This document shows positions 2,663 to 19,000 of a stretch of 23,362 nt of DNA, in pieces; the stretch's first letter is position 1; every line of letters starts with the position of its first letter. A program made the translations under genes and the position numbers. Below the pieces are notes generated by a model, which worked only from the letters and a program-made list of their open reading frames with translations, did not search any database and was not told the DNA's origin. Origin of the DNA: a virus; the IMG/VR virus record IMGVR_UViG_3300037041_000405, positions 1 through 23,362 of that record, one strand, 5' to 3'.

Positions 2663-4653
2663 AGTCTCATTGGGTAATTGACTATGAAACACTATCCAAT
2701 TGCACCATATTAGTAGCTGAACACTATCTAGAAAAGACTCGTAAAGAATTTGTTATTCATAAGCTTAAAAATGATTTCAATGATCTTTTAAGGTTTTTAC
2801 TAGATAGTCAGCACAATAAGCAATATCATATCAGCTTTAATGGTTTGACCTTTGATTCTCAAATAAGTGAGTATATTCTTAAGAATAGTGAGTTACTTAA
2901 AGAATTAGACGGATCTCAAATTAGCAATATGATTTACCAAGTTTCGCAGAAAATTATCGAAAGACAAGATAATGGTGAATTTCCTGAGTATTCTGAAAAA
3001 AATCTTAGTATACCTCAAATTGATGTATTTAAGCTAAATCACTGGGACAACCCGGCTAAAAGATCTAGTCTTAAATGGATTCAGTATACTATGGATTGGA
3101 AGAATATTCAGGATATGCCAATCTATCATGGTAAACATATTACTACTTTAGATGAGATAAATTTGATATTAAGTTATTGTAGAAATGACGTAAGTTCTAC
3201 TAAACATATATTCCATTTATCTAAAAAGGCTATTAAACTAAGGAAAGACTTAACAGTAGAATATGATATACCTTTAATGAGTGCTTCAGAACCTAAGATT
3301 AGTAAAGAATTATTCTTACACTTTTTAACTAAAGCTACGGGTATTTCTAAATATGATCTTCGTCAGATGAGGACTTATCGTACACAGATTGTATTAAAGG
3401 ATATTATATTACCTTTTGTAAAGTTCCAATCTCCAGAATTTCAGGAGTTACTTGAAGTTTTTAAGTCTATTGTTATTGAGGATCCTAATAATATTAAGGG
3501 AGTATTTAAAACAAATATTACTCATAAGAACGTTAAGACTGATTTTGGTCTAGGTGGTGCTCACGGTGCTACTAAAAGCGGTATTTATAAATCAGATGAT
3601 AATTATACGCTTATTACTAGTGATGTGGTAAGCTTTTATCCTAATCTTATTATCCGTAATAAGTGGTCCCCAGCACATATACCTAGTAGAGATTTTAATG
3701 AGTTATACGAATGGTTCTTTACAGAAAGACGTAAAATATCTAAAAAGGATGTAAGGAACTATATTTACAAGATTATTTTGAATAGTACATATGGTCTTAG
3801 TAATGATGCTAATAGTTTTTTATATGATCCGGAACTAACTCTTAAAGTTACTATTAATGGTCAGTTAACTCTTATGATGTTATATGAAATGATATCTTTA
3901 GGTATACCGGGATCTATTCCGTTAATGCAAAATACAGATGGAGTAGAAAACTTAATACCTAATGATTCAATTGATAAGTATTACGAGATATGTAAAGAAT
4001 GGGAAAAGCTAACCAGTTTAGAACTTGAACATGATATATATCAGAGTTTGATTCTAGCCGACGTTAATAATTATATCGCCGTGTATAAAGAAAAAGAAGT
4101 ACCGGTTGATATTTATAACGAGCTAATTATTAGTAATCCTTATTATGTATTTAGGAAATCTAATGATAAATGTTATTATTCAGCTACTAAATGTAAGGGT
4201 AGATTTGAGTTTTCTGAACTAGCGTTACATAAGAATAAAAGCTTTTTAGTAGTTCCTAAGTCAATCTATAACTACTTTGTACACAATATTTTACCTGAAG
4301 ATACCTTATTTAAAAATTCAAATATATTTGATTTTTGTGCAGGTTTCAAAACTAACTCTGGTTGGGTATTAGAAAAGATATGTTATATAAAAGGGGCAAT
4401 GAGAAAAGAGGAATTACAAAAAGTAATACGCTATTATATAAGTAATAAGGGTTGTAAGATAACAAAACGAAATGTTCAGGATGGAAGGGAAGTACAGATA
4501 GAAGCGGATAAACGAGCCATGATAACCGTATTTAATAAGTATGTAGAGATGAAGTGGAGTGATTATGATATTAATATGGGTTATTATTTAGACAAAATTT
4601 ATAAAGAAATCGAAAATATCGAATTCGATTCTAGTCAACTTAAACTATTTTAA
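2659..4653 (+). CDS. Family B DNA polymerase with 3'-5' exonuclease domain
   Basis: A 664-residue replicative polymerase, short for family B. The N-terminal proofreading exonuclease is complete: Exo I D8-x-E10 (IDYETLS), Exo II N61 and D66 (FNGLTFDSQ), Exo III Y173-xxx-D177 (YCRND). The polymerase domain has a Gly-rich GLGGAHG (297-303), motif A with D322 (SDVVSFYPNL), motif B K371-xxx-N375-S-x-Y378-G379 (KIILNSTYG), and motif C QNTDGVE with D427. A later DVNNYIAVYK (468-477) resembles the conserved template-primer binding segment after motif C. Motif C has Asn425 where family B usually has Asp; the essential second Asp is kept. The last five residues, QLKLF (660-664), are a canonical bacterial sliding-clamp motif. 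No TPR insertions of the protein-primed subfamily are obvious. The ATG overlaps the upstream stop by four bases. Confidence 0.95.
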   Translation: MKSHWVIDYETLSNCTILVAEHYLEKTRKEFVIHKLKNDFNDLLRFLLDSQHNKQYHISFNGLTFDSQISEYILKNSELLKELDGSQISNMIYQVSQKIIERQDNGEFPEYSEKNLSIPQIDVFKLNHWDNPAKRSSLKWIQYTMDWKNIQDMPIYHGKHITTLDEINLILSYCRNDVSSTKHIFHLSKKAIKLRKDLTVEYDIPLMSASEPKISKELFLHFLTKATGISKYDLRQMRTYRTQIVLKDIILPFVKFQSPEFQELLEVFKSIVIEDPNNIKGVFKTNITHKNVKTDFGLGGAHGATKSGIYKSDDNYTLITSDVVSFYPNLIIRNKWSPAHIPSRDFNELYEWFFTERRKISKKDVRNYIYKIILNSTYGLSNDANSFLYDPELTLKVTINGQLTLMMLYEMISLGIPGSIPLMQNTDGVENLIPNDSIDKYYEICKEWEKLTSLELEHDIYQSLILADVNNYIAVYKEKEVPVDIYNELIISNPYYVFRKSNDKCYYSATKCKGRFEFSELALHKNKSFLVVPKSIYNYFVHNILPEDTLFKNSNIFDFCAGFKTNSGWVLEKICYIKGAMRKEELQKVIRYYISNKGCKITKRNVQDGREVQIEADKRAMITVFNKYVEMKWSDYDINMGYYLDKIYKEIENIEFDSSQLKLF

Positions 4654-4656
4654 ATT

Positions 4657-5487
4657 ATGAAAGTATCAATGCCTATCGTAACGGAGAGTTATTTACGCTC
4701 CGTTACATTACCTAATCATGCTAATAGCTATACAGTTATTAGTCATGGATTTATAATCGATAATGTTAAACAACAGTTAGCTAATAATAATCTTACGATT
4801 TTAAAAGAGTCTTATAAAATTGCTAATAATGGTGATATAGCACAGGGTTCTTATGTTATTAAACCTGCTAATGATACTGATCTAGGTATATTGTTTAGCT
4901 GGGTTAATAGCTATAATAAAAAAGTAAAGTTTCAATGTATAGCTGGAGCTACGGCTTCTCCTACATTACCCTATAGCGCTACATATATACCAGGTAATAT
5001 CGGGTCATTTGTTCGTAAACATACCGGTAATGCTGATCAAGAAGCTATTCAACATATTCATGATCAGATTAATCAATGTTCTTTGTACTATAATACTATT
5101 GTTCGGGATCATGAAAACTTTAGTAAACTAATTCTGGGTAAGGAAAAACATGCTGAAATACTAGGATTTCTTTATTTTATTGATAAAATACTTACTCCTA
5201 CTCAGTCTAGTACTATAGTTAATAACATTAAGGATCCGTTATTACCATCATTGAATTCTTTATGGGATTTATATACTCATGTATCAATTGCATTAAGAAA
5301 ATCGCATCCTTTAGATTGGATTTCTAATCATATAGCTATTCATACTTATATGAATAAGGTATTTAAATCTTTAACTCCAGTTAGCGAACTAGCTAAATTA
5401 GCTGATGATAATCCTAACCAGTTAGACTTATTTGATACAGAAGCTCCTGTAAAACAAGAAATAACTGAAGTATTTTACGATTTATAA
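4657..5487 (+). CDS. DUF932-like phage protein with a C-terminal clamp-binding motif
   Basis: A 276-residue protein of unknown biochemical role. The middle part (about 73-124: LGILFSWVNSY, FQCIAGA, FVRKHTG) resembles the core pattern of DUF932 phage/plasmid proteins (an NS.D-like strand, a Cys strand and a later kHt), but the match is by eye and moderate. The C-terminal half is helical (about 126-245), ending in an acidic tail with DDNPNQLDLFDTE. QLDLF at 255-259 fits the bacterial beta-clamp-binding consensus QLxLF, which also ends the polymerase three bases upstream. The ATG is 3 bases after the polymerase stop and has no Shine-Dalgarno. A role at the replication fork is inferred from the motif and neighbourhood, not shown. 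Confidence 0.7.
   Translation: MKVSMPIVTESYLRSVTLPNHANSYTVISHGFIIDNVKQQLANNNLTILKESYKIANNGDIAQGSYVIKPANDTDLGILFSWVNSYNKKVKFQCIAGATASPTLPYSATYIPGNIGSFVRKHTGNADQEAIQHIHDQINQCSLYYNTIVRDHENFSKLILGKEKHAEILGFLYFIDKILTPTQSSTIVNNIKDPLLPSLNSLWDLYTHVSIALRKSHPLDWISNHIAIHTYMNKVFKSLTPVSELAKLADDNPNQLDLFDTEAPVKQEITEVFYDL
4678..4706 (+). repeat. Perfect 9-bp inverted repeat near the start of the DUF932-like gene
   Basis: GTAACGGAG (4678-4686) is the exact reverse complement of CTCCGTTAC (4698-4706), with an 11-base spacer; two further GT/AC pairs are possible inside the spacer. It begins 21 bases after the ATG and is GC-rich relative to its surroundings, so the transcript could fold a stable stem in the early coding region. 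Confidence 0.4.
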
Positions 5488-5498
5488 AGCATAAAATC

Positions 5499-6155
5499 AT
5501 GGATTTAGTAGAAAGAATTGAATTAAAAAACGATCATGTATTAAATATTTATCAGGATGAGGATCCTGAGAGTCCCCGCGAATGGGATAATCTTGGTATT
5601 ATGATTTGTTGTCATTCTAGATATAATTTGGGTGATAAACAAGTGTCCCATAAACATGCAGCTCTAATGGATATGGCAGATTCTTTAGATATTAATCTAA
5701 TTTTACAAGATCTTGAGATGTATGATGAAATTTACGGTGATGCGGAAACACTAGAAGAATGGCTTAATGTAAAAAACGATTGGGTATGTTTACCTCTTTA
5801 TCTATATGATCATTCAGGTATTACTATGAGCACATCATCATTTTCTTGTAGATGGGATTCTGGTCAGGTTGGATACATTTATTGTCCTACAAGTACTATT
5901 CTAAAAGAATATGGTAATATTGATCCTGAAACACTGGATAAAGTTACTAAATGTCTTGAGGCAGAAGTAGAAACTTATGATCAATACCTAACCGGAGATG
6001 TTTATGGATTTAAGTTAATGAAGATAACTAAGTGTGATTATGGTCATGAACATGAAGAGGAAATAGACTCCTGTTGGGGATTTTATGGTAGTAATTATAA
6101 AACAAATGGTATCTTTGACAATATTGATAATAAACTAATAAACTTTAATTTATGA
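5499..6155 (+). CDS. Widespread phage protein of unknown function (DNLG...YDHSG family)
   Basis: A 218-residue acidic protein. I recognise its motifs from a family found in many phages and mobile elements without a known activity: PREWDNLGIMIC (26-37), RYNLGD (41-46), PLYLYDHSGITMSTSSF (99-115) and SCRWDSGQVGYIY (116-128). The conserved YDHSG and CRWDSG segments look like an active or ligand site, but the reaction is unknown. A C-terminal segment with C179, H183, H185 and C192 could bind a metal. It follows the previous gene after 11 bases. Its TGA (6153-6155) overlaps an ATG at 6152 that was probably the original start of the dNMP kinase, so the two genes were once translationally coupled. 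No signal peptide or membrane segment is seen. Confidence 0.8.
   Translation: MDLVERIELKNDHVLNIYQDEDPESPREWDNLGIMICCHSRYNLGDKQVSHKHAALMDMADSLDINLILQDLEMYDEIYGDAETLEEWLNVKNDWVCLPLYLYDHSGITMSTSSFSCRWDSGQVGYIYCPTSTILKEYGNIDPETLDKVTKCLEAEVETYDQYLTGDVYGFKLMKITKCDYGHEHEEEIDSCWGFYGSNYKTNGIFDNIDNKLINFNL
5552..5569 (+). repeat. Short perfect hairpin with GAGG loop in a 5' coding region
   Basis: TCAGGAT (5552-5558) pairs with ATCCTGA (5563-5569) around the tetraloop GAGG, 53 bases into the gene that starts at 5499. The stem is compact and would be stable as RNA. No function is known. Confidence 0.3.
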
Positions 6156-6202
6156 TAATAGGAATAAGCGGTAAATCAAAATCTGGTAAGTTTGCATATT
6201 AA
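6152..6202 (+). pseudogene. Severed 5' end of the dNMP kinase gene (P-loop remnant)
   Basis: Sixteen codons read MIIGISGKSKSGKFAY and then stop (TAA, 6200-6202). The first thirteen match the N terminus of the intact kinase downstream (MALIGISGKTRVGK), including a full Walker A GxxxxGK, although most wobble positions differ in the DNA. Similarity ends after GGTAAG (6185-6190); the next bases are AT-rich and unrelated to the kinase. The ATG overlaps the preceding TGA as ATGA, the arrangement expected of the ancestral start. I read this as the original kinase beginning, cut off when the homing endonuclease gene inserted. It might still be translated as a short peptide. Confidence 0.8.
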
Positions 6203-6222
6203 ATATATATTATATACTTTTA
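6191..6222 (+). promoter_or_regulatory. Candidate Bacteroides-type promoter ahead of the homing endonuclease
   Basis: TTTG (6191-6194) and TACTTTTA (6215-6222), separated by 20 bases, fit the Bacteroidota primary sigma pattern TTTG-N19-21-TAnnTTTG except for the last base. It lies in the AT-rich gap just upstream of the ATG at 6235, which would give the inserted gene its own transcription. In DNA this AT-rich, a match of this quality can arise by chance. Confidence 0.3.
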
Positions 6223-6233
6223 TAAAAAAGTAT
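6214..6233 (+). repeat. Hairpin directly before the homing endonuclease start
   Basis: ATACTTTT (6214-6221) pairs with AAAAGTAT (6226-6233) around the loop ATAA, ending two bases before... the start codon region at 6235 (one base, 6234, lies between). The ribosome docking region would be folded into the stem. Hairpins that limit translation are known for homing endonuclease genes of T4-like phages, but here the stem is AU-rich and weak. Confidence 0.4.
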
Positions 6234-6234
6234 T

Positions 6235-6924
6235 ATGAAGATATACATTTATACACTAGAACACCCTGTAACTAAAGAAGTTAGATACATAGGTAAAACT
6301 AAAAATCCAAAAGAAAGATTTCACAATCATTGTAATAGACTACATAATCAATATTCTCATAAAAGAAATTGGATAAATAGTCTAAGAAACCAAGGTTTAA
6401 AACCTGTAATAAATATTCTTGATGAAATAGATGAATCAGAATGGAAATACTGGGAAAAGTTTTGGATAGAACAATTTAGACAATGGGGGTTTAATCTTGT
6501 TAATCATACTTCTGGTGGAGATGGTTTAACTGTAGGTAATCAAACATCTTTTAAAAAAGGACAAAAACCTTGGAATTATGGAACAGCTAAACCTAAAATA
6601 TTAAAAGGTAATGTAGGTAAAACTGAAAATTCTATAAAAAATCAATTTAAACCAGGATTTATTCCTTGGAATAAAGGATCAAAAGGATATAGTACTAGTA
6701 AAAAAGGACAATTTTTATCAGAAACTACTAAGATTAAAATAAGTAATAGTTTAAAAGGAATAGAGTCTAATAAAAAAAGAATTATTAAACAATATAATAA
6801 AAATATGGAATTAGTAAAAGAATATCCCTCTATAACAGAGGCAGTTTTAAAAACAGGAATAAAATCAATTAGTAACGCTCTTACAGGTAGAGCAAAAACA
6901 GCAGGAGGTTACATATGGCTTTAA
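6235..6924 (+). CDS. GIY-YIG homing endonuclease with NUMOD DNA-binding modules
   Basis: A 229-residue free-standing homing endonuclease that makes a site-specific break in DNA lacking the gene. The GIY-YIG nuclease domain spans about 1-97: YIYTL (4-8) stands for GIY, RYIGKT (17-22) is YIG, followed by R28, the probable catalytic E74 in WEKFWI and N90 before the HTSGGDG loop. DNA-binding modules follow: two PWN-type repeats (FKKGQKPWNYG, 106-116; FKPGFIPWNKG, 138-148), a NUMOD3-like SETTKIKISNSLKG (162-175), and a NUMOD1-like helix-turn-helix at about 184-228 ending in the typical AGGYIW. It is more A-rich than its neighbours. Its last 10 bases overlap the kinase start, and its AGGY codons supply the kinase's ribosome binding site. 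Confidence 0.92.
   Translation: MKIYIYTLEHPVTKEVRYIGKTKNPKERFHNHCNRLHNQYSHKRNWINSLRNQGLKPVINILDEIDESEWKYWEKFWIEQFRQWGFNLVNHTSGGDGLTVGNQTSFKKGQKPWNYGTAKPKILKGNVGKTENSIKNQFKPGFIPWNKGSKGYSTSKKGQFLSETTKIKISNSLKGIESNKKRIIKQYNKNMELVKEYPSITEAVLKTGIKSISNALTGRAKTAGGYIWL
6903..6908 (+). promoter_or_regulatory. Shine-Dalgarno AGGAGG for the dNMP kinase
   Basis: AGGAGG sits six bases before the ATG at 6915. It is the only strong Shine-Dalgarno sequence I see before any gene in this operon. It is also the codons for the conserved Ala-Gly-Gly of the endonuclease's C-terminal module, so it may serve the kinase only by coincidence. It supports 6915 as the functional start. Confidence 0.5.
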
Positions 6925-7550
6925 TTGGGATTTCAGGAAAAACACGTGTTGGTAAGGATACAGTTGGTAAAATTATCCAAAGATTAATCCATACAAAATC
7001 CAGTGAACTTTGGGAAATTAAACGATTCAGTGATAAACTGAAGATAATATCAGCTGTTTTAACAGGTTTTCCTGTTCATTACTTTGAGGATCAGGAATTT
7101 AAAGATTCTGAGATGGAAGTAGAATGGGACTATATCCAGGATGGTTTTTTACGTAAACGAGCTGAAGATGATGATAGAAAAAAGTATACTTATAGAGAGT
7201 TTTTACAAAGACTTGGTACTGATGCTATAAGAAATAACTTACATGATGATACTTGGATTAATGCGTTATTTGTAAATTATCATGCTGGAAGTAATTGGAT
7301 TATTACAGATCTTCGTTTTCCTAATGAGGCGGATGCTATTAAATCTTTAGGTGGTATTATTATACGTGTGGATAGACCTCTTGAAGATAGATATCCTGAA
7401 TTAACTAAAAGTATATTAGATAATTTTAATCATGAATCTGAAACGGCTTTAGATAATTATGAATTTGATGCTGTTATTGATAATAACGGTCCGACAGGTC
7501 ATTTGGAAATTTCCTTAAACGAGTATTTAAAATCTCGAGAACTGATATAA
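6915..7550 (+). CDS. Deoxynucleoside monophosphate kinase
   Basis: A 211-residue P-loop kinase that would phosphorylate dNMPs to dNDPs with ATP, feeding phage DNA synthesis. The Walker A loop is G8-KTRV-GK14-D15-T16, with Asp in the usual Ser/Thr place, a form common in T4 gp1-like dNMP kinases. Other family features are a tyrosine/arginine segment before FLQRLGTDAIRN (95-106), HDDTWINAL (109-117), the Walker B-like strand WIITDLRFPNEADA (128-141), followed by IIIRVDRP, and a C-terminal HESE...VIDN segment. The protein is complete despite the upstream insertion because the start and P-loop are re-supplied at 6915. It overlaps the endonuclease gene by 10 bases and has AGGAGG upstream. It is the last gene before a terminator. 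Confidence 0.9.
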   Translation: MALIGISGKTRVGKDTVGKIIQRLIHTKSSELWEIKRFSDKLKIISAVLTGFPVHYFEDQEFKDSEMEVEWDYIQDGFLRKRAEDDDRKKYTYREFLQRLGTDAIRNNLHDDTWINALFVNYHAGSNWIITDLRFPNEADAIKSLGGIIIRVDRPLEDRYPELTKSILDNFNHESETALDNYEFDAVIDNNGPTGHLEISLNEYLKSRELI

Positions 7551-7555
7551 CTGAA

Positions 7556-7571
7556 TAACCTAGTTAGGTTA
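7556..7571. repeat. Palindromic element between convergent genes
   Basis: TAACCTA-GT-TAGGTTA has 7-bp arms and a 2-base centre, six bases after the kinase stop. The spacer is too short for an RNA loop without breaking pairs, so it resembles a DNA-level dyad (protein-binding site) more than a terminator. It lies 20 bases before the terminator hairpin. Confidence 0.35.
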
Positions 7572-7590
7572 ACAATAAGAAAAAAAAGAA

Positions 7591-7619
7591 AGAGGGGATT
7601 ATTCCCCTCTATTTTTTTT
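7591..7619. terminator. Bidirectional rho-independent terminator
   Basis: AGAGGGGA (7591-7598) pairs with TCCCCTCT (7603-7610) around the loop TTAT, followed by A and eight T (7612-7619). On the other strand the stem is followed by a T-rich tract (complement of the A-rich 7579-7590). It lies between convergent genes and overlaps the last bases of the minus-strand giant gene, so it can end both transcripts. Confidence 0.9.
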
Positions 7620-10600
7620 ATTTTCTAGACATTATTGAATACTGAGTTCTTATACCCATTATAGGATCTAATGTACTTCCTGTAAGTCCTAATGCTGTAG
7701 CTCCGTATCTAAATGCTTTTATACCACCTTCACGTTGCCATAGATACGGACCGGAATCACGTTTATAATAAGCTGATTTATCACGTGTTGCAAGATCAAA
7801 TATACTACCAGCCATTTTTACATAAGTTTCAATAGTAGGTCCATAGGCTATACTACTTAGATTAGCTAAATCTTTATAGTCTTCTAAGCCATAACCCGGT
7901 AAAGGTATAAATGCTTCGTTTTCTTTTCTAACTTGAAGAGTCATTAACAAGGCATGGTTACTTAACCATCCAAACATATTAAACGGATGATCTTCATCAC
8001 CAGGAGCAAATAAGAATGGAAGGTGTCCACTCTTCTCTCTTAGTTTATCGTATTTGTCATCGTCGTCATCATCAAATCCGAACACTAAAGGTAATAACAT
8101 AGTTAAAGAGGTTAAAGCGACAAACTCGGTTAAAACCCTCATCATAGATAGTTTATCCTTAGTACTCATAACACTGAGATATTTACCTTTTGTTAGTATT
8201 ATAGTAAGCATATCATTCATAGCTTTTATATACCAACCCATCTCTAAACGTTCGGCTCCGATATTAAATCTTTCACTAGATTTCCATATATGTCCTTTAT
8301 ACTGAAAACGATACATAAACATCCTGGTAAAATATCTTCTTAAATAGGATACTAATCTAAATAGTAAGAATCTCTGAGCTTCTGGTTGTTCCCAAGGAGC
8401 ATAAGCTCCACCTAGTTTATTCTGAAGGTCGTGTTGACGATTAACAAAAGTATTGAACTTTTTCATGTCAGCTACCTTCATATCTTCACCATCTTTAAAT
8501 TGACTGAAGGTTTTACCGTTATTATATTTAGATATCCTTCTTTCTAGTTCTTCTTGAGTTATACCAAATTTATTAGCGTATTCTTCTAATGATGTAGTTT
8601 TACTGAATGTTACTATTCTAGGTCTTCTATCATACTCTGGATCAATACCATCTTTTAATACAGTTTCGGTTCTTTCAACTTCTTCAGTTGATCCATCGCG
8701 GTTATATACTAAGCTAGTAACTGATCGTTTTTCCCAGGCGTCTGTATAACTTATAGTAGTAGCATTACCATCAGCATCTAACTGATTAAGTTTAACTCCT
8801 TCCAGAGCTGAGAAAAATACCTCATATTGACCTAGTAACTGTAACCATTCCCTAGTATTATAAGATATACCGGCTTTCATAGGATTAGCTAATTCAGCAA
8901 CATCCTTAACAAATGATCGGCTAAATCTTCTACCAAAGTTTTTATCAACCCGACCTTGTGCCGCATCCATTATATCAGCTAAGTCTAGGTAAACGCTTTT
9001 CTCTTTATCTCCGTACATCTTTAGGGTTACTTCCGCAGCTGTTTTAAAAGCTAAAGCCTGTCCGGATGCCATATCTTTTAAATCATAATCACCACCCCCG
9101 ATAGCGTGAAGACTATACTGCCACTTTTGACCTAGGTAGTTTTTAACAGCAGAGGGTACATTAAACGCAAAGAAACCAAAACTAGCTCTACCAAATATAA
9201 GCTGTGAAAGTTTATTTAATCTAACGTTTTCTTTACTTCCTATACCTTTTTGAGAAATACCTTGAAATTCTCTTTCAATTAAATTATTAATAGCGTTTAA
9301 TCGATTATTCTCATTCTTCTTTTTTAAGAATCTTAAAGGAGATAATGGTCTAATCCTGTTTTCTATCCAACTTTTTTTATCAATTTTTTGTCTATCATCA
9401 ACACCTACTGGAGTACCATCTACATTGATTAAAGATTGTTTAACAGCCATTACATCTGGATACATTTGTATAAGATTTTTCTGCCTTATAGCTGATAGCA
9501 TGTATCTCATATAATTATTTACAATATCGGTATTAACATCCTCAATATCTATAAAGTCACTTCCAGCTATCTTAACACCCGATATCTCATCATCCATCAT
9601 ATCCAGATTAACTAAACGAGCCTGTTCTTCAAAGTTATTAAGACCTTCAGAATATATCTTTTTAGTACTTAATAAAAATTCCCTTACCCTTTTTACTAAT
9701 CTTGATATAGGATTGTCTTTAGCAGACATTTTCTTATTTCTAAGTATTTCAAGTTTACTAGAATAAAACCTTGGTAGATCTAAATAAAGTCTACCATATT
9801 TACTAACACCATTCTGAAGATCAAGTGCTTGCCATTTTAACTTTTCTATTACGTCAATTAAATCAGTATTCCCTGAATCTATAACTTCATAATATTTTTC
9901 GTTTATAAACTGATAAGGATCTTCACCACCTTCAAAGTCATCTTTATACTTATCGTAATAGTCTCTCATGTCTTCTCTATTCTTAGGAAGCCATTGACCT
10001 TTATTTGTTGTAGTAACCCCTATGATTTCTTTATTTCTATATTCATCTTTTACTGTTCTGTAAACATAATTTTCATTAGGTACTCTAGGAATACCATTTA
10101 CTATTATTTCTTCTTGATCAGTAACATCTTCCGGATTTTTAGCCGTATAAGACTCATAATAAGTAATATCCTTAGGTAAAAACTTATTATATAGATACAT
10201 TCTTTGGTAGTCTCCTTTATATCCTACCTTATGGGTTTTATCAAACCATTCTTTAAATTCAGCGTCCTCTAACAAAGGTTCAATACGAGCTTTACTTAAA
10301 TATGAATCATCAACACTAGCTAATGAGGAAATATCATAATTAGATAAGTTAAACCCATTAAAATAATCTATAACAACTTGAGGATTCCTTTGTCTTAAAA
10401 GGTTTAATTGATCATTAAAGTTATCTATATAATAATCAGAAGCAACAGCTTTTTGAAGATTACGTTTTTCTTCTTTAGCAGATTTTAAATCATCGAATAA
10501 TGTTGTGTCTAATCTTTGTCTTTTAGCTTTATCCCTCAGTTCTCTAACCTCAAGTTCAACTCTAGTATCAACACTCATTTCTGGAAAATCAGCAGGTATA

Positions 10601-13600
10601 TCAAATGCTTCTTTTAATTCTTCAATAGTATACTGATCTTTATTAATACCTATTTGGTATCTATCCCATTCTGCCTGGGTTAAACCGCTTTCTCTTACTT
10701 TTACTTCTTTATCTAACCTATCTATCTCATTATTAATCTCTTCTAATCTTTTTACTTCATCTTCTGTAAATTGAGAAGGATCATATTGTCTAGAAGAGTC
10801 TTTTTTACCTAATAGTAACTTATCTCGTTCTTTTGTAAGTTCATCCCATTGAGCATAATATTCTTCATTTGCTTTATCAATAGCTCTTATCTCAGCGTTT
10901 AACAACTTAATTCTTTCATTAATATTCCTAATACTTTCCCAGTATTCAGTATTTAATACAACAGTAGTTTCTGTAAGGAGAAACTCGTTCCATCTTTTGT
11001 TAAATTCTATATCCTGTTGAGCTTTATCTTTATAAGTTTTTGTTACCCAATCCCTTATCTCTTGTTTCTTTTGATAGAAATTTCTATTAAAGGCTTTAGT
11101 TCTTATAGATTTGGTATAAAATTTTTTAGATTGTTCTCTATATTCTATTAGCTTTTGAGCTATATCATAAGCATCACCCTTTTTAGTATTACCGTTAGTA
11201 TCTGTTAAAGAGTATAACTGATTAGATAGTTTTCTATACTTTTCAGCTAATGCGGTATCTCCTATAGCTTTACTCTCATTAATCCGATCTTGGTAATATT
11301 TAAGTTTGTTGTTAGCTATTTTACCGATAGCATCACTAAAAAAGTCAGATTTAAATTTATAAAACTCATCTTTAAAAGGTTGATAAAAATACTTCCTCTG
11401 CCACTTTTCAAACTCCTCCGCGGCTTCCATAAAAGCAGCTTCGTCTTCTACAGACAATGTATCATTATATGTAGCTTCCAGTTTTTTAAGATCTTCTCTT
11501 TTTTGAAATAAAACCGACTCCCAATTTTTATTAGGGTTTAATAGTCTCCATACTTTTTTAATTACATATTTAGGACCTTCTTTAATATCGGTATCATAAT
11601 AAGATATCTCATCCTGGAAAGCTACTTTATTAGTGAACTCTTGAGGATTAGATGGATTATAACCTAACTTTTTAGCAAGAGGACTAATATCATTCCACCA
11701 GGCTTCCATTCTAGATTGTGCTTCAGCCACAGTTCTATTGTAATTATCTTTAATAAACTTAGCTACACTCATTACTATAGGATCCTGATTGTACATATAC
11801 CCCTCTAAGAATCCGTTTAAAGCATGACTATCTCCAAGCTTTCCTTCTAAATACATTTCTATAGACTTTTCTAAAGATTCAAATTGACCTGTATCAGTAT
11901 TAAAGTTTCTAATAGAACTTTGCTTATACTTATCTTTTGTTCTTTGGATTAACCATTCAGGCATTTTTTTATCTTCTAACTTCTGAATTAGGTTATCGTA
12001 ATATTCTCGAATATATTCATCTAAACTCTCAAGTTGCTCAACAACTAAAGCGGTAGTAGATTTTTTATATATCTTATTAGTAATGTGCTTAGCAGATTTA
12101 AGCTTAGTTTCTACTAATGATAAGAAAGATACAAGATCATTTGGAATAAGTCCGTTAGTGTATTCACCACTTTCTATATCCTTTTTCATACCTTGGATAT
12201 AGTCTAACCAATAATTAATAATATCATTTTGAGTATGAGCTCGTTTTAAAAGATTTTTATCATTAATATTATTTAAAGTATCGTTAAGATCCTCAATCAT
12301 ATTATCTAAAGCTGTATCTAAAACTTCGATAGTTTCAACCAGGTTAGTAGCCTGATTAACAAAAAAGTTATAATCAGCTTTGAAATTAGCAAATTTACTT
12401 TCTATTTCAATTTTTACTTCTTGATCAGCTTCTCTAATAAGGTCTATATATTTATTAGCTTGATCATCTGTAAGTACATCCCGACCTTTTAAAAATCCTA
12501 TGATATCTTCATATATTGATATTGGATTAGTATCATCGTTTATAGATTCGGTTAATCGTTTTTCTAAATCGTTAATTACATCAGTAATCTCTTCAGATCG
12601 TTCCATCTGTTTGATTTCATTTAAAGTACCTTGTAACTTCTTACCGGTTGCTCCTAGCTTACTTTGTACTTCTTCAAATAGCGACTTACCATTTATTGTG
12701 GCAAATAAGTCTTTTATAGTGGTTCTTGATACTCCAGGTATATTATATCCTGGTAGAGCTAATCTATCAACAAATTTGTTTACCCTACTAGATAACTCTT
12801 TTATGTTTACTACTAATTTCTCATTATCAAATTTTTCATTAATATTTTTTATGACTTTTCTATTTTCTTCTCTGAATTCTTGAATCTCTTTATTTGTAAT
12901 ATCTTCAGCAGCTATAATAAAGTAATCTCCTTTAGCTAAAGACTTAGCTAAGTCATCTATTGTAGTATTAACATTTAGCTTTGATATATCTATTTTAGAA
13001 CCAAATATATTTCGTAGTAACTGTTTTACCTGGTACATGAATTCTTTTAACCACTCTAATAAACTACCTTTTTTATCGGTATTTACTAATTCAGCTGCTT
13101 TACCTAAAGACCAGGTTAAAACTTCTTTTTTAAAACCCATGCTATCTTTATCTAGTTCTGGGTATTCTTCGATAACCATTTGTTCAACAGTAGTCATCTG
13201 CCCATTATCTAGCTGGATAGTACTTGCTAAAGCTTGATTTACTAGTTTATTAAATAGCTCCGGATTATATACAGATAAAGCTTCAACTAAAGCGTGAGAA
13301 AACTCGTGAAATACAGTAGCTGTAGTAAACTGATCTTTATTAAAATATACAACCCCGTTATAAAAGAATGATTTTTGAGCTAAGTATTTATCTCCTAATA
13401 GCTCTTTAGCCTCTTCATCGGTAAGAAACTCGTAAGGTACATTTAACTGTTCAGTTAATCTATTGGCTAATTGTTCTAGTTCTCCTAAAGCTTTAACATT
13501 ATCATTACCTTGTATATCAAATAAACTATATAAATTTTTATTTCTTAATCCAGGAAACATAAGCTCCTGTATAGCAATAAGATCCTCATCTTCTGTAATT

Positions 13601-16032
13601 TCTGATACTAAATCTTTAGGTTCTAAAACATCTTTTTTAGGTAAAAACCCTATAGCTGATTCATTAATAAGCTTTTTAAACTTTTGAGAATCTTGTTTAT
13701 ACGATTTGTCTGAAAAGAAATTAGTTACATTTTCAGAACTGAAAAGTTTAGAATCAATTTGCATTAAAGTAGAAATAGCTGATTTTAAATTCTCCATCGC
13801 TTCTAAAAATTCTTCTTTCGATTTTTTTATATTTTCAGGAAGCTTTTCTGTCTTTACTACAGTAGTTTCAATTTCACCAAATACCGGTTTTATAATAGAT
13901 TTACTTATAAGTTTACTATCTTCAATTACTTTAAAGAAATTTTCGGATAAAGGAATTATGTTATTAAGAGCTTTAACAATATAATTATATAATTTTTCTA
14001 AGAAATTTAATTTTATGTTTTCTATAACATCTACTACTACTTCTGTTTCTCCAATTTTTTCCCGAGTTTTTACAATTTCTTCATATGTTTTATCTTGTAA
14101 AGTCTGTACTTTTTCTATAAATTCAAAAATATCATTACTTCTCAAATCTGTTTTTTGAATCCATTGTTTAGGATATAACATTAATTGTGTAGAAAAAGCT
14201 GTAAATTCCTTATATAAAGTATCATAACTTAATTCTCCACCTTTATTATATCCTGAACCAAATACTTGGTCCATCATTTCTTTTCCGAAAGCTGTATTAT
14301 AAAGCGAATCAAACGCTTTTCTTAAATCAAGTTCTTCTTCAGTACCATATGATAAAGCATGTAAAGCATGAAACGGTTCATGTAAAATAGCAGCTAATCT
14401 ATTAAATACTTCTTCTTCTTTTAAAAAATTCTTAACTGGTTTAGGTTTTTTATAAGTTTTTAACTCAAAAGGGTTAGCAAACCCAAGTATTTTAACATCA
14501 AATCCTGTATCAGCCTCTGTTTCCATATCTGACATATAATATTGCCCAGATATGTTATTAAAATTAATATTTAGCCAATTAAAATTACCTGAAAAGAAAT
14601 AATCTAAATGAGATATTCCGTTAGATAACTTTTTATCTTTAAACTTTTTAGTTATTCTTTCTTTAGCTGTTTTAAGAAACTCTTCATAAGGCTTGGCAAA
14701 AAGCTCAACAGTTTGCCAATTATATTGTCTAATAGATTCCCTCCATTTAGATAACTCGATAGTGTCCGAATTACCTGTCCAGTTATATGAAATATTTTCT
14801 AAAGCATAATCAAAATCTCCAAACGCAAGTTTTTGTAATTCATTGTAATCTATATTATTATGTTCAGCATATTTTCTTACATTTTCTTCTTCTGAAGAAG
14901 GCTTAAAATATCCAGTGCTGTTTAAGTAGTAAGCGATAGCTTTACGTAATTGTTTGGTAGTCATAGATGTATGATCAATAACTACATTTTCTCCCCATTC
15001 TACCCTCAATACTTTCTTTACACCTCCGGTTCTATCATAATTTTTAAAAGAAACTCCTTGTAATTTTTTGCCTGTAATTTTTTCTATTTCTGTTAATAGT
15101 CCTAATTTTGGAAGTTTGAATTTTACACTATTCTGTAATGTAATAGACGCATTAACATTTGTACTATCTTCAGGCGAATATGTTGTATTTATATAATCCC
15201 ACATATCATTTGGAAAAAGTTCTAACATTTTTCCAATTTCATCTAAATTTATTTTAAGAGAAGTTTCTTCCGGATTTAAAAACTTAATAGCATCATAAAG
15301 ATATTTTTTAGCTTGAGCTACATACTTAGCCTTAGAAGGTTTCTCACGATATAAAACAAATGCTATACTTCTATTAGCATTAAATATCTTAGTTGGTGTA
15401 TATTCTAATCCATATTTACTAGCAATATCAGATTTAACATCTTTTGTAGTATGTAAAACTCTTACATTAGTAGCTAAAACTTCTTCTTTATATTTATCTA
15501 ATATATTGTATAAATTAGATTTTTTGTTTTTGTTAGCTTTAATATAAATTAAATCTACATATTCATTATAACCTTGAAACTCTTGACCAGTTCTTTCATA
15601 TTTAGTTATAATTTTTGTAACTTTAAATTCATTCGGAAAAGCTTTTTCTTTATCTAAAATATAAGCAAATCTTGCAGCATCTTTAGAATTTAAAAAAACA
15701 TAGGATTGTCCTCCTTTAAATTCAAATTTTTCATCTTCTTGATTTGTAAGTAACTCATACTCAATTGTATTTTGAAGATTATCTTTTTCTTTATCAATAA
15801 GCTGAACTAACTCTTCATTTATTTTGAGAGGACTTTTAATAAGTTCTGGAGTATATGTGCCAAACAGTTCTTCTTTAAATGTGTTATATACCTCATCAGG
15901 ATTCCTAAATTCGTTATACATCATATAATCCTTTACTGCGTAGAAGAACGGATTAGTAAACCCTCTTGTTTTCAGGGCTTCTACTTGGTTTTTAAACTCG
16001 GGAGAACTAAAATTAAAGCATGCTTGTGACAT
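7618..16032 (-). CDS. Giant virion-type protein (2,804 aa) with two zincin metalloprotease motifs
   Basis: A huge multidomain protein of the type that crAss-like phages encode beside the virion RNA polymerase; delivery with the genome is inferred. Visible parts: an N-terminal region starting MSQACFNF; a first zincin motif HEPFH (551-555, in HEPFHALH) with a likely third ligand E609; a second zincin motif HEFSH (909-913) with a likely third ligand E970; a long charged helical and coiled-coil middle (about 1050-1900, strongest near 1704-1777); a well-structured C-terminal region including FFAFNVPSAVKNYLG (near 2285); and one hydrophobic stretch (about 2637-2653) followed by six Asp (2654-2659). 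No lysozyme or transglycosylase motif is recognised. The start is the only ATG before an upstream in-frame stop, 5 bases after the preceding gene. The protease role is inferred from motifs; substrates are unknown. Confidence 0.85.
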   Translation of the reverse strand: MSQACFNFSSPEFKNQVEALKTRGFTNPFFYAVKDYMMYNEFRNPDEVYNTFKEELFGTYTPELIKSPLKINEELVQLIDKEKDNLQNTIEYELLTNQEDEKFEFKGGQSYVFLNSKDAARFAYILDKEKAFPNEFKVTKIITKYERTGQEFQGYNEYVDLIYIKANKNKKSNLYNILDKYKEEVLATNVRVLHTTKDVKSDIASKYGLEYTPTKIFNANRSIAFVLYREKPSKAKYVAQAKKYLYDAIKFLNPEETSLKINLDEIGKMLELFPNDMWDYINTTYSPEDSTNVNASITLQNSVKFKLPKLGLLTEIEKITGKKLQGVSFKNYDRTGGVKKVLRVEWGENVVIDHTSMTTKQLRKAIAYYLNSTGYFKPSSEEENVRKYAEHNNIDYNELQKLAFGDFDYALENISYNWTGNSDTIELSKWRESIRQYNWQTVELFAKPYEEFLKTAKERITKKFKDKKLSNGISHLDYFFSGNFNWLNINFNNISGQYYMSDMETEADTGFDVKILGFANPFELKTYKKPKPVKNFLKEEEVFNRLAAILHEPFHALHALSYGTEEELDLRKAFDSLYNTAFGKEMMDQVFGSGYNKGGELSYDTLYKEFTAFSTQLMLYPKQWIQKTDLRSNDIFEFIEKVQTLQDKTYEEIVKTREKIGETEVVVDVIENIKLNFLEKLYNYIVKALNNIIPLSENFFKVIEDSKLISKSIIKPVFGEIETTVVKTEKLPENIKKSKEEFLEAMENLKSAISTLMQIDSKLFSSENVTNFFSDKSYKQDSQKFKKLINESAIGFLPKKDVLEPKDLVSEITEDEDLIAIQELMFPGLRNKNLYSLFDIQGNDNVKALGELEQLANRLTEQLNVPYEFLTDEEAKELLGDKYLAQKSFFYNGVVYFNKDQFTTATVFHEFSHALVEALSVYNPELFNKLVNQALASTIQLDNGQMTTVEQMVIEEYPELDKDSMGFKKEVLTWSLGKAAELVNTDKKGSLLEWLKEFMYQVKQLLRNIFGSKIDISKLNVNTTIDDLAKSLAKGDYFIIAAEDITNKEIQEFREENRKVIKNINEKFDNEKLVVNIKELSSRVNKFVDRLALPGYNIPGVSRTTIKDLFATINGKSLFEEVQSKLGATGKKLQGTLNEIKQMERSEEITDVINDLEKRLTESINDDTNPISIYEDIIGFLKGRDVLTDDQANKYIDLIREADQEVKIEIESKFANFKADYNFFVNQATNLVETIEVLDTALDNMIEDLNDTLNNINDKNLLKRAHTQNDIINYWLDYIQGMKKDIESGEYTNGLIPNDLVSFLSLVETKLKSAKHITNKIYKKSTTALVVEQLESLDEYIREYYDNLIQKLEDKKMPEWLIQRTKDKYKQSSIRNFNTDTGQFESLEKSIEMYLEGKLGDSHALNGFLEGYMYNQDPIVMSVAKFIKDNYNRTVAEAQSRMEAWWNDISPLAKKLGYNPSNPQEFTNKVAFQDEISYYDTDIKEGPKYVIKKVWRLLNPNKNWESVLFQKREDLKKLEATYNDTLSVEDEAAFMEAAEEFEKWQRKYFYQPFKDEFYKFKSDFFSDAIGKIANNKLKYYQDRINESKAIGDTALAEKYRKLSNQLYSLTDTNGNTKKGDAYDIAQKLIEYREQSKKFYTKSIRTKAFNRNFYQKKQEIRDWVTKTYKDKAQQDIEFNKRWNEFLLTETTVVLNTEYWESIRNINERIKLLNAEIRAIDKANEEYYAQWDELTKERDKLLLGKKDSSRQYDPSQFTEDEVKRLEEINNEIDRLDKEVKVRESGLTQAEWDRYQIGINKDQYTIEELKEAFDIPADFPEMSVDTRVELEVRELRDKAKRQRLDTTLFDDLKSAKEEKRNLQKAVASDYYIDNFNDQLNLLRQRNPQVVIDYFNGFNLSNYDISSLASVDDSYLSKARIEPLLEDAEFKEWFDKTHKVGYKGDYQRMYLYNKFLPKDITYYESYTAKNPEDVTDQEEIIVNGIPRVPNENYVYRTVKDEYRNKEIIGVTTTNKGQWLPKNREDMRDYYDKYKDDFEGGEDPYQFINEKYYEVIDSGNTDLIDVIEKLKWQALDLQNGVSKYGRLYLDLPRFYSSKLEILRNKKMSAKDNPISRLVKRVREFLLSTKKIYSEGLNNFEEQARLVNLDMMDDEISGVKIAGSDFIDIEDVNTDIVNNYMRYMLSAIRQKNLIQMYPDVMAVKQSLINVDGTPVGVDDRQKIDKKSWIENRIRPLSPLRFLKKKNENNRLNAINNLIEREFQGISQKGIGSKENVRLNKLSQLIFGRASFGFFAFNVPSAVKNYLGQKWQYSLHAIGGGDYDLKDMASGQALAFKTAAEVTLKMYGDKEKSVYLDLADIMDAAQGRVDKNFGRRFSRSFVKDVAELANPMKAGISYNTREWLQLLGQYEVFFSALEGVKLNQLDADGNATTISYTDAWEKRSVTSLVYNRDGSTEEVERTETVLKDGIDPEYDRRPRIVTFSKTTSLEEYANKFGITQEELERRISKYNNGKTFSQFKDGEDMKVADMKKFNTFVNRQHDLQNKLGGAYAPWEQPEAQRFLLFRLVSYLRRYFTRMFMYRFQYKGHIWKSSERFNIGAERLEMGWYIKAMNDMLTIILTKGKYLSVMSTKDKLSMMRVLTEFVALTSLTMLLPLVFGFDDDDDDKYDKLREKSGHLPFLFAPGDEDHPFNMFGWLSNHALLMTLQVRKENEAFIPLPGYGLEDYKDLANLSSIAYGPTIETYVKMAGSIFDLATRDKSAYYKRDSGPYLWQREGGIKAFRYGATALGLTGSTLDPIMGIRTQYSIMSRK

Positions 16033-16037
16033 ATATA

Positions 16038-19000
16038 CTAAGGCTTAATAAAACATTTGTTAATAAAATCGATTACATCCTGGTCAGTTACCGGTGTAAA
16101 TTTAAGTATAATTTCTTTAGGAGCCTCTGATATATCAAATCCTTTATTAATATATCCGAAATTTTCATATATCTGGGATGAAAGATAGTTAAATCCTTCT
16201 TTATTATAAATAGTATCTACAATAGATTTTACTTCTGTACTTACAGTAGGTTGAGTTGTTCCTTCTATTTTCTTAAGAGCATTTACTGTAGCCCTTACCT
16301 CTATTGCAATTTTATCAGGAGTATTAAGCTCTTTTCCTTTAGTCCAATAAACATCCTTATCATTATTATCTATATGGTCTTGCTCATGTAATATTAAAAA
16401 GGTATTAGCAATTTTATTTGACGTAATGATGTTTTTAATTTTATCTATCGTATAGTCTTGTTTAGCTAACTCATCTAAAACCAATTTTTTCTGTTGACTA
16501 GTGACACCGCCTTCTTCACCTTTAATATAGTCAAAAAACTCTTGAAGATTTGTTACAGGATTTATTGTAATTACTCCATCTTTATTTGTTGATGCAAATC
16601 TTTTAGATCCATCTGTATTTTTTAAATTTTTATTTATTTCATATTTAGGAACTACTAAAGTTTCTTTAACACTAGTAGATAATTGAGCTACAGGAGCTTG
16701 GGTAACAGATGGTATTACATTAGAAAATCCTTGAGCTATAGGAGTAAACAATGGTACAATACCTAGACCCATATAATCTTTTATAGCCTTTATTTTACTA
16801 TCTACCATGTTTTTAAAAGATTCTAGATCTTCTTTAGTATTTAACTTTATATATTGTTTATCGGACCATAATTCAAACAATACAGTTTTAGCTGAATATT
16901 TTGTATTGGGGAATAATTGATAATCTAACTGGTCGATAGGAATAGAAGGTCTAGTTTTATTATTAGCTGTTGTACCGCCGATAATCTGATATTTACTTAA
17001 TCTAGAACTTAATCTAGGATTGGTTAGGTCTTTACCTACCTTACTCAAATTACCTTTTACATAATTAAATTCTCCATACATATTATCTCCTACAGGGTTA
17101 TCAATAACAATAGCCTCGAATCTTTCTACCGGTTGTGGTCTTTCTTTATTAAACATTACCCTCAAACTATTCGAATCGGTAATTTCCCAATTCTTAGTTA
17201 TGTATCTGGTTAGATTAGATCTATAATTTAGATCTACAAATTTTTGTTTATAAATATTTAATACTGAGTTATTTAAAGTTTTATTTAAATCTTTAATAGG
17301 TTCTTCAAGTAATTTCATAACCTTAGAATCTCTAGCTACAGTAAATGTTAAATCTGTTTTTGTACTATAATTACCTTGTAAATAAGCCATTATACTAAAC
17401 TGAGAAAAGAATCTGCTTATATACTCATTTAAAGATTGATCATCTACTTTTTTAATAGCCGGGTTAGCTAAGTCTGATAGCTGATTAGTTATATTATCTT
17501 TTTCAACTGGTGTGTTAATTGTTGAAATAAAAGCCAGATTATTTATACCGGCATTTTCTTTCAAAACTAATTGTGTTAAAATAGGATAGTCTTCACTAGA
17601 TAAATCAGGTAAATTCTCAAATCTTTTAGCGTATGAATTTTGACCCTGGAACATATAATAATAGTTATATGTATTAAATAAAGCTCTTTGAACTAAGAAG
17701 TTCTCGTAAGCTACCATAGGATCTTTTTTATCTTTTAATAGTTCTTTGTATTCATAATCATTTTGATAAGACTCCGGAGTATTATAAATACTTCTAAGTA
17801 CTTCTCTTTCAATGACAAACTTTTCAAATTGATCATAGTTACTAAATACTGATTCAGATTCAACTCCAGCTAGTTTTATTGGAAGTTTAGTTAGTTCATT
17901 GTATTTATCTATATTTTTGCTAGTATATAGCTTATTAGTGTAAACAAAGTTTAGAATCTTTTTATCTATATAGATAACGCCGTCTTTTACAAAAGCTCCT
18001 AATTTTACTTTTCGAGTTTCCTTAATAGGAAACTTTTTTTCATTTTCTTCTTTTGTATATCCCTTATAGTAATTGGTTTCACCAGATCTATCATATTGAG
18101 TATTAACTGATTGAAGTATATTTTGAAATACAAAGGGTACTAACTTATCAATAAAATTTTCATAAAATTCATCAGGAGTAGTAAATCTAGTATTTTCAAT
18201 AATATATTTATAATTTGTACTATCCTGCCCTGAAATTAACATTATATCATCATTCATTAATGATGTAATATAATCTAACAATACAGGATTAGTTCTTAAT
18301 GATAACAAGGTCTTACCAAACATATTTAAAGCTAATTCTGTAGGATTATATTTAGTTTGAACTGTATCCTTAACAGCTTGATTCCACAAACCTCTTGGTA
18401 TAAACTTCTTATCTTCAATAGTTTCGATTTTAGATTTAAGTTTTAATACATCATAAAAGCTAACTTGACGTTTAGTATCAAAGTTTAATAAGTTTGTAAA
18501 CTTACTTATACCGTCCGACATATCCTCTATATGAAAGAAATGTATAAGTCTATCAATATCAGTTTGATTATATTCAGGAACATAACTTTTACCATCTCTT
18601 TTTATTTTGGCTCTTTCAGCTTCTATCCTTTGCTTTAATATAGCACTATCTGTAAAATTTTTATTGTTCTTATTATCATTTATTACTTCAGTATAAAGAG
18701 GGTCCATAAACTGAGCATTTCTCTGATCTCTAAACATAGAAGAATACTTATTTATAAGTTTTTCTCTAGCTCTATCTTTATTTTCCCAAAACTTTTTACT
18801 AGGAGCTTTACCATCATATAATCTTGCATTAGGTCCGGAAAACTTATTTTTATAATCTAAGTATTCTAATATAATAGGTTGATTAATAAAATAAACAGCT
18901 TCCTCAAGCGGTACACCGGCTTTAATTAAAAAAGTTAAAGCTGTTGCTGTATCTCTAGTAGCGTTGATATCATAAACCCAAGCATCTTTAGCAACGTCTA

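Follow-up and report, generated by a model that had tools for sequence, protein, structure and literature searches.

The window analysed here, a stretch of 23,362 nucleotides (nt) of viral DNA (IMG/VR record IMGVR_UViG_3300037041_000405, positions 1 to 23,362), carries a deoxynucleoside monophosphate (dNMP) kinase gene whose P-loop (Walker A) codons are divided by an insert of 766 base pairs (bp). We consider it highly probable that this insert is a mobile homing cassette, made up of a promoter-like leader, a GIY-YIG endonuclease and a replacement kinase start (the head), and that a chimeric full-length kinase is still encoded. The insertion, both of its edges, the foreign nature of the head, the spread among distant phages, the recurrence of such inserts and their decay products can all be read from the sequences compared.

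In the mechanism that we propose, the cassette would insert into the glycine-lysine codons of Walker A in the phage dNMP kinase gene, between GG and NAAR, leave the native start behind as a 16-codon remnant and supply a foreign start codon with half a P-loop, with which a full-length chimeric kinase would again be encoded. The endonuclease would cut the uninterrupted P-loop sequence, and repair of the break would copy the cassette, with the remnant and the kinase body serving as homology arms; the foreign head would protect the donor from recutting, and the chimeric kinase is presumably functional. In this way a selfish gene could settle within an enzyme's catalytic motif by bringing the missing piece along; neither an intron nor an intein was found. 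The N-terminus of the kinase would become horizontally mobile, independently of the kinase body, and gene callers will annotate the chimeric start unnoticed.

The insertion site and its uninterrupted allele

The window was compared with L001, an IMG/VR contig without the endonuclease, whose kinase reads ATGATAATAGGAATAAGCGGTAAATCAAAATCTGGTAAGGATACAGTT uninterrupted. The left flank of L001 was 99.24% identical over 3,042 nt (window 3149-6190) and the right flank 99.47% identical over 3,598 nt (window 6950-10547), with nothing between the two. Because the L001 flanks meet without interruption, the size of the insert could be set at 766 bp, with TGGTAAG at both ends, between the GG and the TAAG of the Walker A codons. 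Presence and absence were therefore observed at one precise site in near-identical genomes and, since L001 is the uninterrupted allele, the arrangement with two heads is not due to chance. The remnant at 6152, a 16-codon frame (MIIGISGKSKSGKFAY), agreed letter for letter, from 6152 to 6190, with the beginning of the intact L001 kinase gene, and its start codon overlaps the stop of the preceding open reading frame (ORF; 5499-6155) as ATGA. A preliminary description made from the window sequence had proposed that two P-loop-encoding starts flank the endonuclease gene, that the upstream one is ancestral and that a homing-type endonuclease had inserted at the P-loop codons, and it had predicted that in a relative without the endonuclease the 6152-type start would continue directly into GATACAGTT after GGTAAG. 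All of this held: L001 passes directly into that sequence, its kinase start is of the 6152 type, and it lacks the insert.

The left edge of the cassette was placed between GG (6185-6186) and T (6187), and the right edge at 6952/6953, differences between the window and L081, a contig with a related cassette, crowding from 6953. When eight occupied alleles were aligned, the sequence 5' of GG on the left side varied by host while AAGTTTGCA onward was common, and on the right side the heads of the window's own cassette type (V1, see below) were common while the sequence 3' of GG varied by host; the left edge is thus GG^NAAG and the right edge GG^NAAR, one and the same position within the Walker A codons. 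Uninterrupted relatives were also found for other occupied alleles. For L081 these were L195 and L197, with a start matching the L081 remnant (MIIGISGRMGSGKDTIGTIIQGL) and 91% and 89% identity, respectively, over the left 2.95 kb; for L038-L040, the more distant counterpart L055 had the same start peptide as the remnant and kinase DNA at 79-82%.

From left to right, the window holds a DNA polymerase, two genes of unknown function, the endonuclease ORF and the dNMP kinase (Table 1). The kinase ORF at 6915-7550 begins MALIGISGKTRVGKDTVGK and is complete by itself. It was identified by Pfam DNMK (1.4e-15), PHROG 139 (1.6e-46) and PDB 1dek (E 3.9e-6); a gap-free alignment of its first 22 residues with the N-terminus of T4 dNMP kinase 1dek (MKLIFLSGVKRSGKDTTADFIM) is not significant by itself, the significant part of the match being residues 89-179. 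The endonuclease is an uninterrupted ORF with a recognised homing nuclease domain, as in the other cassettes (GIY-YIG or NUMOD4 + HNH_3); dividing it by eye, we placed the catalytic part at about residues 3-87 and the DNA-binding part from about residue 102. Its stop codon falls within the new kinase head, the overlap being 10 nt (6915-6924).

This layout bears on whether the endonuclease might instead lie within a self-splicing intron, the 6152 start being spliced to the kinase body and the second head being irrelevant. Joining the TGGTAAG repeats would indeed yield an intact kinase, but no Rfam match at the gathering threshold was found in the whole window, and positions 6100-7100 searched at E values up to 5 gave only two chance-level snoRNA matches (E 3.9) and no intron model. 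Moreover, a ribozyme would have only the 44-nt leader and the head to itself, since most of the insert is taken up by the endonuclease ORF, which reaches over the new start codon; and the downstream kinase ORF is complete alone. We therefore regard an intron as very improbable. An intein was rejected, as no continuous frame leads in from the host N-terminus and a stop codon lies three codons past the remnant lysine.

Table 1. Features of the interrupted kinase locus (positions in the window)
Feature	Position	Strand	Evidence or remark
Decapitated native kinase start (remnant)	6152..6202	+	6152-6190 encodes MIIGISGKSKSGK, then FAY; stop at 6200-6202
Left copy of the 7-bp repeat TGGTAAG	6184..6190	+	Alignment with L001 and other occupied alleles
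Cassette leader, promoter-like layout of Bacteroidota type	6191..6234	+	TTTG at 6191-6194; second box TACTTTTA at 6215-6222
GIY-YIG homing-type endonuclease, 229 aa	6235..6924	+	Pfam PF01541, E 9.6e-8
GGAGG, Shine-Dalgarno-like (putative)	6904..6908	+	Within the endonuclease gene, 6 nt 5' of the new kinase ATG
Replacement kinase head	6915..6952	+	From the start codon into Walker A, through GG of the last glycine
Right copy of the TGGTAAG repeat	6950..6956	+	Window matches L001 from 6950 onward
Native dNMP kinase body	6953..7550	+	Right flank 99.5% to L001; Pfam DNMK, PHROG 139

Recurrence of the cassette and origin of its head

A second, truncated P-loop was present in 9 of 86 distinct kinases and not found in the other 77, a proportion that is biased upward and is not an unbiased frequency, because L223 and L085 entered only via endonuclease searches and two kinase scans began from occupied loci. 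The count started from 195 loci with a kinase match (two of the locus searches gave at least 80 loci each); 22 were dropped as no P-loop was found at the expected place, although several do have one, and the remaining 173 formed 91 distinct kinase bodies at 97% (bodies below 90 nt were skipped), five of which had less than 700 nt upstream. The window and L001 share one body cluster, counted as occupied, and the script recognises a second P-loop only if it fits a fixed pattern and is closely followed by a stop codon, so that longer or eroded ones, such as that of L235, can be missed. All nine kinases with two P-loops also had an upstream endonuclease match; relatives with two P-loops and no endonuclease, which would have spoken against the proposed history, did not appear. 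The split-and-replace at the P-loop, which the preliminary description had thought unusual, is less so than it seemed, given these nine kinases and the similar build of fungal mitochondrial elements (PMC3630166, PMC7315562).

We sorted the cassettes into types under labels of our own. V1 comprises the window, L081, L082/L083 and L084; V2, L085 and L086/L087; V3, L038-L040, with an endonuclease 41% identical to that of the window; V4, L208/L209 and L223; and the HNH type, L206 (NUMOD4 + HNH_3) and L235, whose HNH is the same one at 90% identity and whose remnant is eroded. Two nuclease families, GIY-YIG and NUMOD4 + HNH, were thus found at one kinase site. The left edge of L206, GGTAAGTTTGCATATTA, is that of the GIY-YIG cassettes, yet an HNH gene lies behind it, as if one homing element had replaced another. 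Among the 77 kinases without a second P-loop, L235 is HNH-occupied and two have decayed cassettes: L168, on whose contig only an endonuclease tail joined to a head is left (L063:2910-3030), and L033, with only an HNH tail and a head (L033:2880-3010). The decayed cassettes indicate that a kinase start may stay exchanged for good after cassettes have invaded, replaced one another and been lost. The NUMOD4/HNH endonuclease lies at L206:2348-3040 and L235:2900-3560, and the kinase there has GKNN or GKNT, not GKDT; the L235 contig (G011, 113,094 bases) also gave five GIY-YIG domain matches besides the HNH gene at the kinase.

The window head (6915-6952) was identical to the L081 head at 36 of 38 nt and to the L083 head at 35 of 38 (92-97% among the three). 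The kinase bodies of L081 and L083 were 47% and 50% identical to that of the window, their DNA polymerases 54% and 51%, and their endonucleases 97% and 95% (L082 is a near-identical sister of L083). Among these three the element is therefore more alike than the host genomes, with the endonuclease at 95-97% as against 51-54% for DNA polymerase and 47-64% for the kinase bodies: the head follows the cassette, while the remnant and the kinase body follow the host. If the phage had instead doubled its own P-loop segment at insertion and the copies had then drifted, the two heads should code for similar peptides and share their last 7 bp, as they do; yet the downstream head, so close to that of a distant phage, matches its own remnant at only 19 of 33 nt, and the remnant is unchanged from L001. 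Such a local duplication is already contradicted by L081 and L083, and we give it almost no credence. As to whether the downstream P-loop came from a donor or was recoded, both of which had been suggested, the matches with L081 and L083 point to a foreign, donor-derived head, and special recoding found no support (see below). The donor of the heads was not found among natural heads, the nearest of which were only 23-27 of 33 nt identical to the eight cassette heads (22 for L208).

The ratio of nonsynonymous to synonymous divergence (dN/dS) of the endonuclease between V1 cassettes was 0.09-0.12; the endonuclease is under purifying selection. Synonymous divergence (dS) was 2 to 6 times higher in its catalytic half (approximately 0.30-0.36) than in its DNA-binding half (0.05-0.14), both for window 6235-6924 against L081 and L083 and for L085 against L086, as if the 3' part of the gene had recombined more recently.

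L084 belongs to the same phage lineage as the window, being collinear at 98.0% over 3,501 nt until the contig ends inside the endonuclease. Of its 69 differences from the window, 49 lie at or after 6176, and 6 of its 14 differences from L001 fall within nine remnant positions (6176-6184) that adjoin the insertion, forming one patch. The simplest reading of these sequences is that the window and L084 represent two separate acquisitions of the cassette in one phage lineage, accompanied by a short conversion patch.

Comparison of cassettes by module revealed two linked pairs. Between the window and L086, identity was 91% in the leader and 94% in the catalytic part, but 40% in the DNA-binding part and 47% in the head; L208 and L223 gave 94, 91, 49 and 60%, and L223 and L040 gave 58, 57, 64 and 74%, for the same four modules in order (the leader and head figures are nucleotide identities over 24-44 positions and hence coarse). 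The leader thus co-segregates with the catalytic part and the DNA-binding part with the head. L081 and L086, which reside in related phages (DNA polymerase 92%), have different DNA-binding parts and heads. The second linkage fits a pairing of target recognition with self-protection, although adjacency alone could give it. With several cassette types at one site, each with a linked DNA-binding module and head, the relation between target recognition and self-immunity becomes directly testable.

It could also be that a free-standing endonuclease simply sits beside the kinase and that the head is a passenger of co-conversion with no role in the success of the element. Co-conversion of flanks is usual in homing, as reviewed in PMC2988022, and L084 has a short foreign patch beside the insertion. 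On the other hand, in the window type the last 10 nt of the endonuclease gene are also the first of the head, and it is the DNA-binding domain, not the host, that the heads follow, a pattern that adjacency alone could again produce; moreover, as the insertion lies inside a gene, a headless cassette would destroy the kinase. We consider a passenger head rather unlikely, and prefer a head that belongs to the homing cassette.

Nine of 11 leaders matched TTTG-N20-TAnnTTTG. The TTTG (-33) / TAnnTTTG (-7) layout has been published for Bacteroides promoters (PMC7366714), and the same pattern with spacings of 18-22 occurred three times, once with a spacing of 20, in the 46,724 nt of both window strands. 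As five of the nine matching leaders are close relatives, they amount to three unrelated leaders (V1/V2, V4 and HNH). The leaders suggest that each cassette may bring a promoter for Bacteroidota hosts.

Besides the bias in the count of occupied kinases, several observations weigh against the cassette as we describe it. The leaders of the window (TACTTTTA) and of L040 do not match the promoter-like pattern. The V2 head is out of frame with the kinase body, so that restoration of the kinase fails there unless recoding occurs. DNA identity between head and remnant in 10 occupied alleles, not all of them independent, fell at quantiles 0.02-0.82 of 88 natural heads; only L040 (0.02) stands out, the others lying at 0.10-0.82, and in nine of the 10 alleles the head was no more divergent than between unrelated kinases. 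Finally, the remnant and the head of L083 both carry AAAATAGGTGTTGG beside the junction, so that divergence of the head alone may not confer immunity. When natural heads were matched for amino-acid identity the outcome was mixed (L040 0/30, L208 0/1, others 0.14-1.0). With quantiles within the natural range, the window head looks like the head of another lineage, and special recoding for immunity was rejected, there being no excess divergence overall. Resistance to self-cleavage is nevertheless an attractive idea because the occupied gene again has an intact P-loop adjoining the right half of the site; the ordinary divergence of a foreign head may suffice for protection, or protection may have another basis.

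A candidate ribosome hop in V2 cassettes

The V2 heads (L085, L086 and L087, each at 3584-3660) encode MKKENKKHP(I/V)NLIGINGRIGSG and end GGT TAG GTA AAG. The junction contains five extra nt and a stop (GGT TA GGT AAA, TAG being directly 3' of the first GGT). A ribosome hop from the first GGU to the second would restore the exact P-loop GKDT; otherwise the kinase would be left without a P-loop. These were the only three contigs with the V2 pattern found in IMG/VR, L086 and L087 being 99.97% identical; the pattern was not found in bacterial and archaeal genomes, and the V2 head and kinase DNA had no match in the annotated phage collection.

A hairpin was predicted just 5' of the V2 take-off codon, at -22.0 kcal/mol in L086 and -20.2 kcal/mol in L085; among 91 heads folded, these two included, the median was -4.1 kcal/mol and the next best -10.4. 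The fold of 137 nt from L086 had a z score of -3.2, and none of 200 shuffles was as stable. Only three differences separate the L085 and L086 heads; two lie in the stem, and both keep the pairing. The stem has codons that are rare in the phage, GGG being used for 1 of 84 Gly and CTC for 1 of 134 Leu (1,737 codons in eight L086 reading frames). A -1 frameshift at the V2 site was also considered; read by hand, it would bring in additional residues and cost the Walker A spacing. Taken together, these features make the V2 heads candidates for translational bypassing, a proposal that we hold tentatively and somewhat short of even. A head donor richer in GC would also bring rare codons, there are only two independent V2 sequences, and the kinase of the V2 phages may simply be dead. 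The ratio of nonsynonymous to synonymous substitution rates (Ka/Ks) of the V2 kinase was 0.24-0.34 in four comparisons with L086 and 0.24-0.39 in four without it, and most of this divergence may predate the insertion; the L086/L087 ratio has no power because the two are 99.97% identical.

In a wider hypothesis, to which we give a chance just short of even, interchangeable homing cassettes would contend for the P-loop codons of this kinase, and in each of them a DNA-binding domain would be matched with a head that protects the cassette itself; in L085-L087 the 5-nt insert, placed exactly in the target, would protect, ribosomes would hop across it (GGU, UAG, GGU) and the upstream hairpin of rare codons would drive the hop. 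If true, the V2 hop would parallel in minimal form the bypassing known from T4 gene 60, in a phage and once more in association with a homing endonuclease. As candidates for programmed ribosome hopping, the V2 cassettes are compact and can be tested.

Phage context and comparison with known systems

Protein searches of the annotated phage collection gave 16 records for the endonuclease and 545 for the kinase, all below 60% identity (for the kinase, the best 40 of 545 are listed). The DNA of 5499-7550 gave one weak match in the same collection, to an uncultured phage and lying within the endonuclease, and no relative of the endonuclease was found in bacterial and archaeal genomes. The label 'crAss-like' given to the phage in the preliminary description could not be upheld: membership of Crassvirales was not confirmed, the giant ORFs having no family match and the polymerase matches, at 30-33%, spanning many phage groups among the matches listed. 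One listed polymerase match, Cellulophaga phage phi14:2, is presumably related to crAss-like phages, which we treat as an unconfirmed lead only. The two giant ORFs are adjacent on the minus strand, at 7618-16032 (2804 aa) and 16038-23360 (at least 2440 aa, open at the window end); neither had a Pfam or PHROG match, and the 2804-aa ORF had none in the phage collection.

In the open-licence PMC literature we recognised no paper describing a phage cassette that re-supplies a start codon and half of Walker A. Given this and the existence of fungal and Tremella analogues, the cassette is best rated, by analogy, as a phage variant of an already known kind of element with duplicated gene ends, of which the re-supplied start codon and half Walker A in a phage are the new part. 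According to PMC3630166, fungal mitochondrial mobile ORFs with duplicated gene ends occur in Allomyces atp6 and in Glomus atp6, atp9, cox2 and nad3. As described there, an endonuclease ORF likewise lies in a gene whose native end is replaced by a foreign one and kept as a remnant matching a relative without the insertion, and horizontal origin is inferred; in the window, too, the remnant (6152-6190) equals L001 and the foreign end is in frame with the gene, which it is not in V2 (L085-L087; five extra nt and a stop). The elements of that source concern the C-terminus of mitochondrial genes, with a LAGLIDADG enzyme in the Glomus atp6 example, whereas here the N-terminus including the start codon is exchanged on phage contigs, the endonuclease is GIY-YIG or HNH, and the junction lies inside Walker A. 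In Tremella, introns with N-terminal duplications are reported (PMC7315562), and there too foreign gene fragments are exchanged together with a mobile element that has a homing endonuclease. The systems treated in that source are present or former introns whose duplicated fragments are about as long as the exon that follows, whereas here no intron was found and the head has 12-13 codons (more in V2).

Among phages, free-standing endonucleases within functionally critical gene regions are exemplified by T4 mobA/gene 60 and Aeh1 mobE/nrdA, in which, by the accounts in PMC2988022 and PMC5009743, the product of the split gene is two polypeptides that come together again; in the window, by contrast, the lost part is re-supplied. 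In the phage ShiLan, an out-of-frame HNH insertion in a methylase gene (PMC11855218) resembles ours as a homing insertion in a phage gene that fits neither a recognised intron nor an intein, but as presented in that source it contains no stop codon in the frame of the host gene and is translated as part of the protein, and no replacement end is described. For bypassing, the review PMC5009743 gives T4 gene 60, 81 inserts in the mitochondria of one yeast and, with less certainty, cases in a Streptomyces phage and in Prevotella. The gene 60 insert is thought to protect from cleavage and is bypassed by ribosomes (PMC5009743, PMC2988022). Its layout as given in PMC5009743 (GGA UAG ... GGA, a 5' stem-loop and a neighbouring homing endonuclease) is paralleled among our cassettes only by V2, where bypass-like signals occur and a 5' stem-loop adjoining the take-off site is predicted; unlike the 50-nt gap of gene 60, the V2 gap measures 5 nt including the landing codon.

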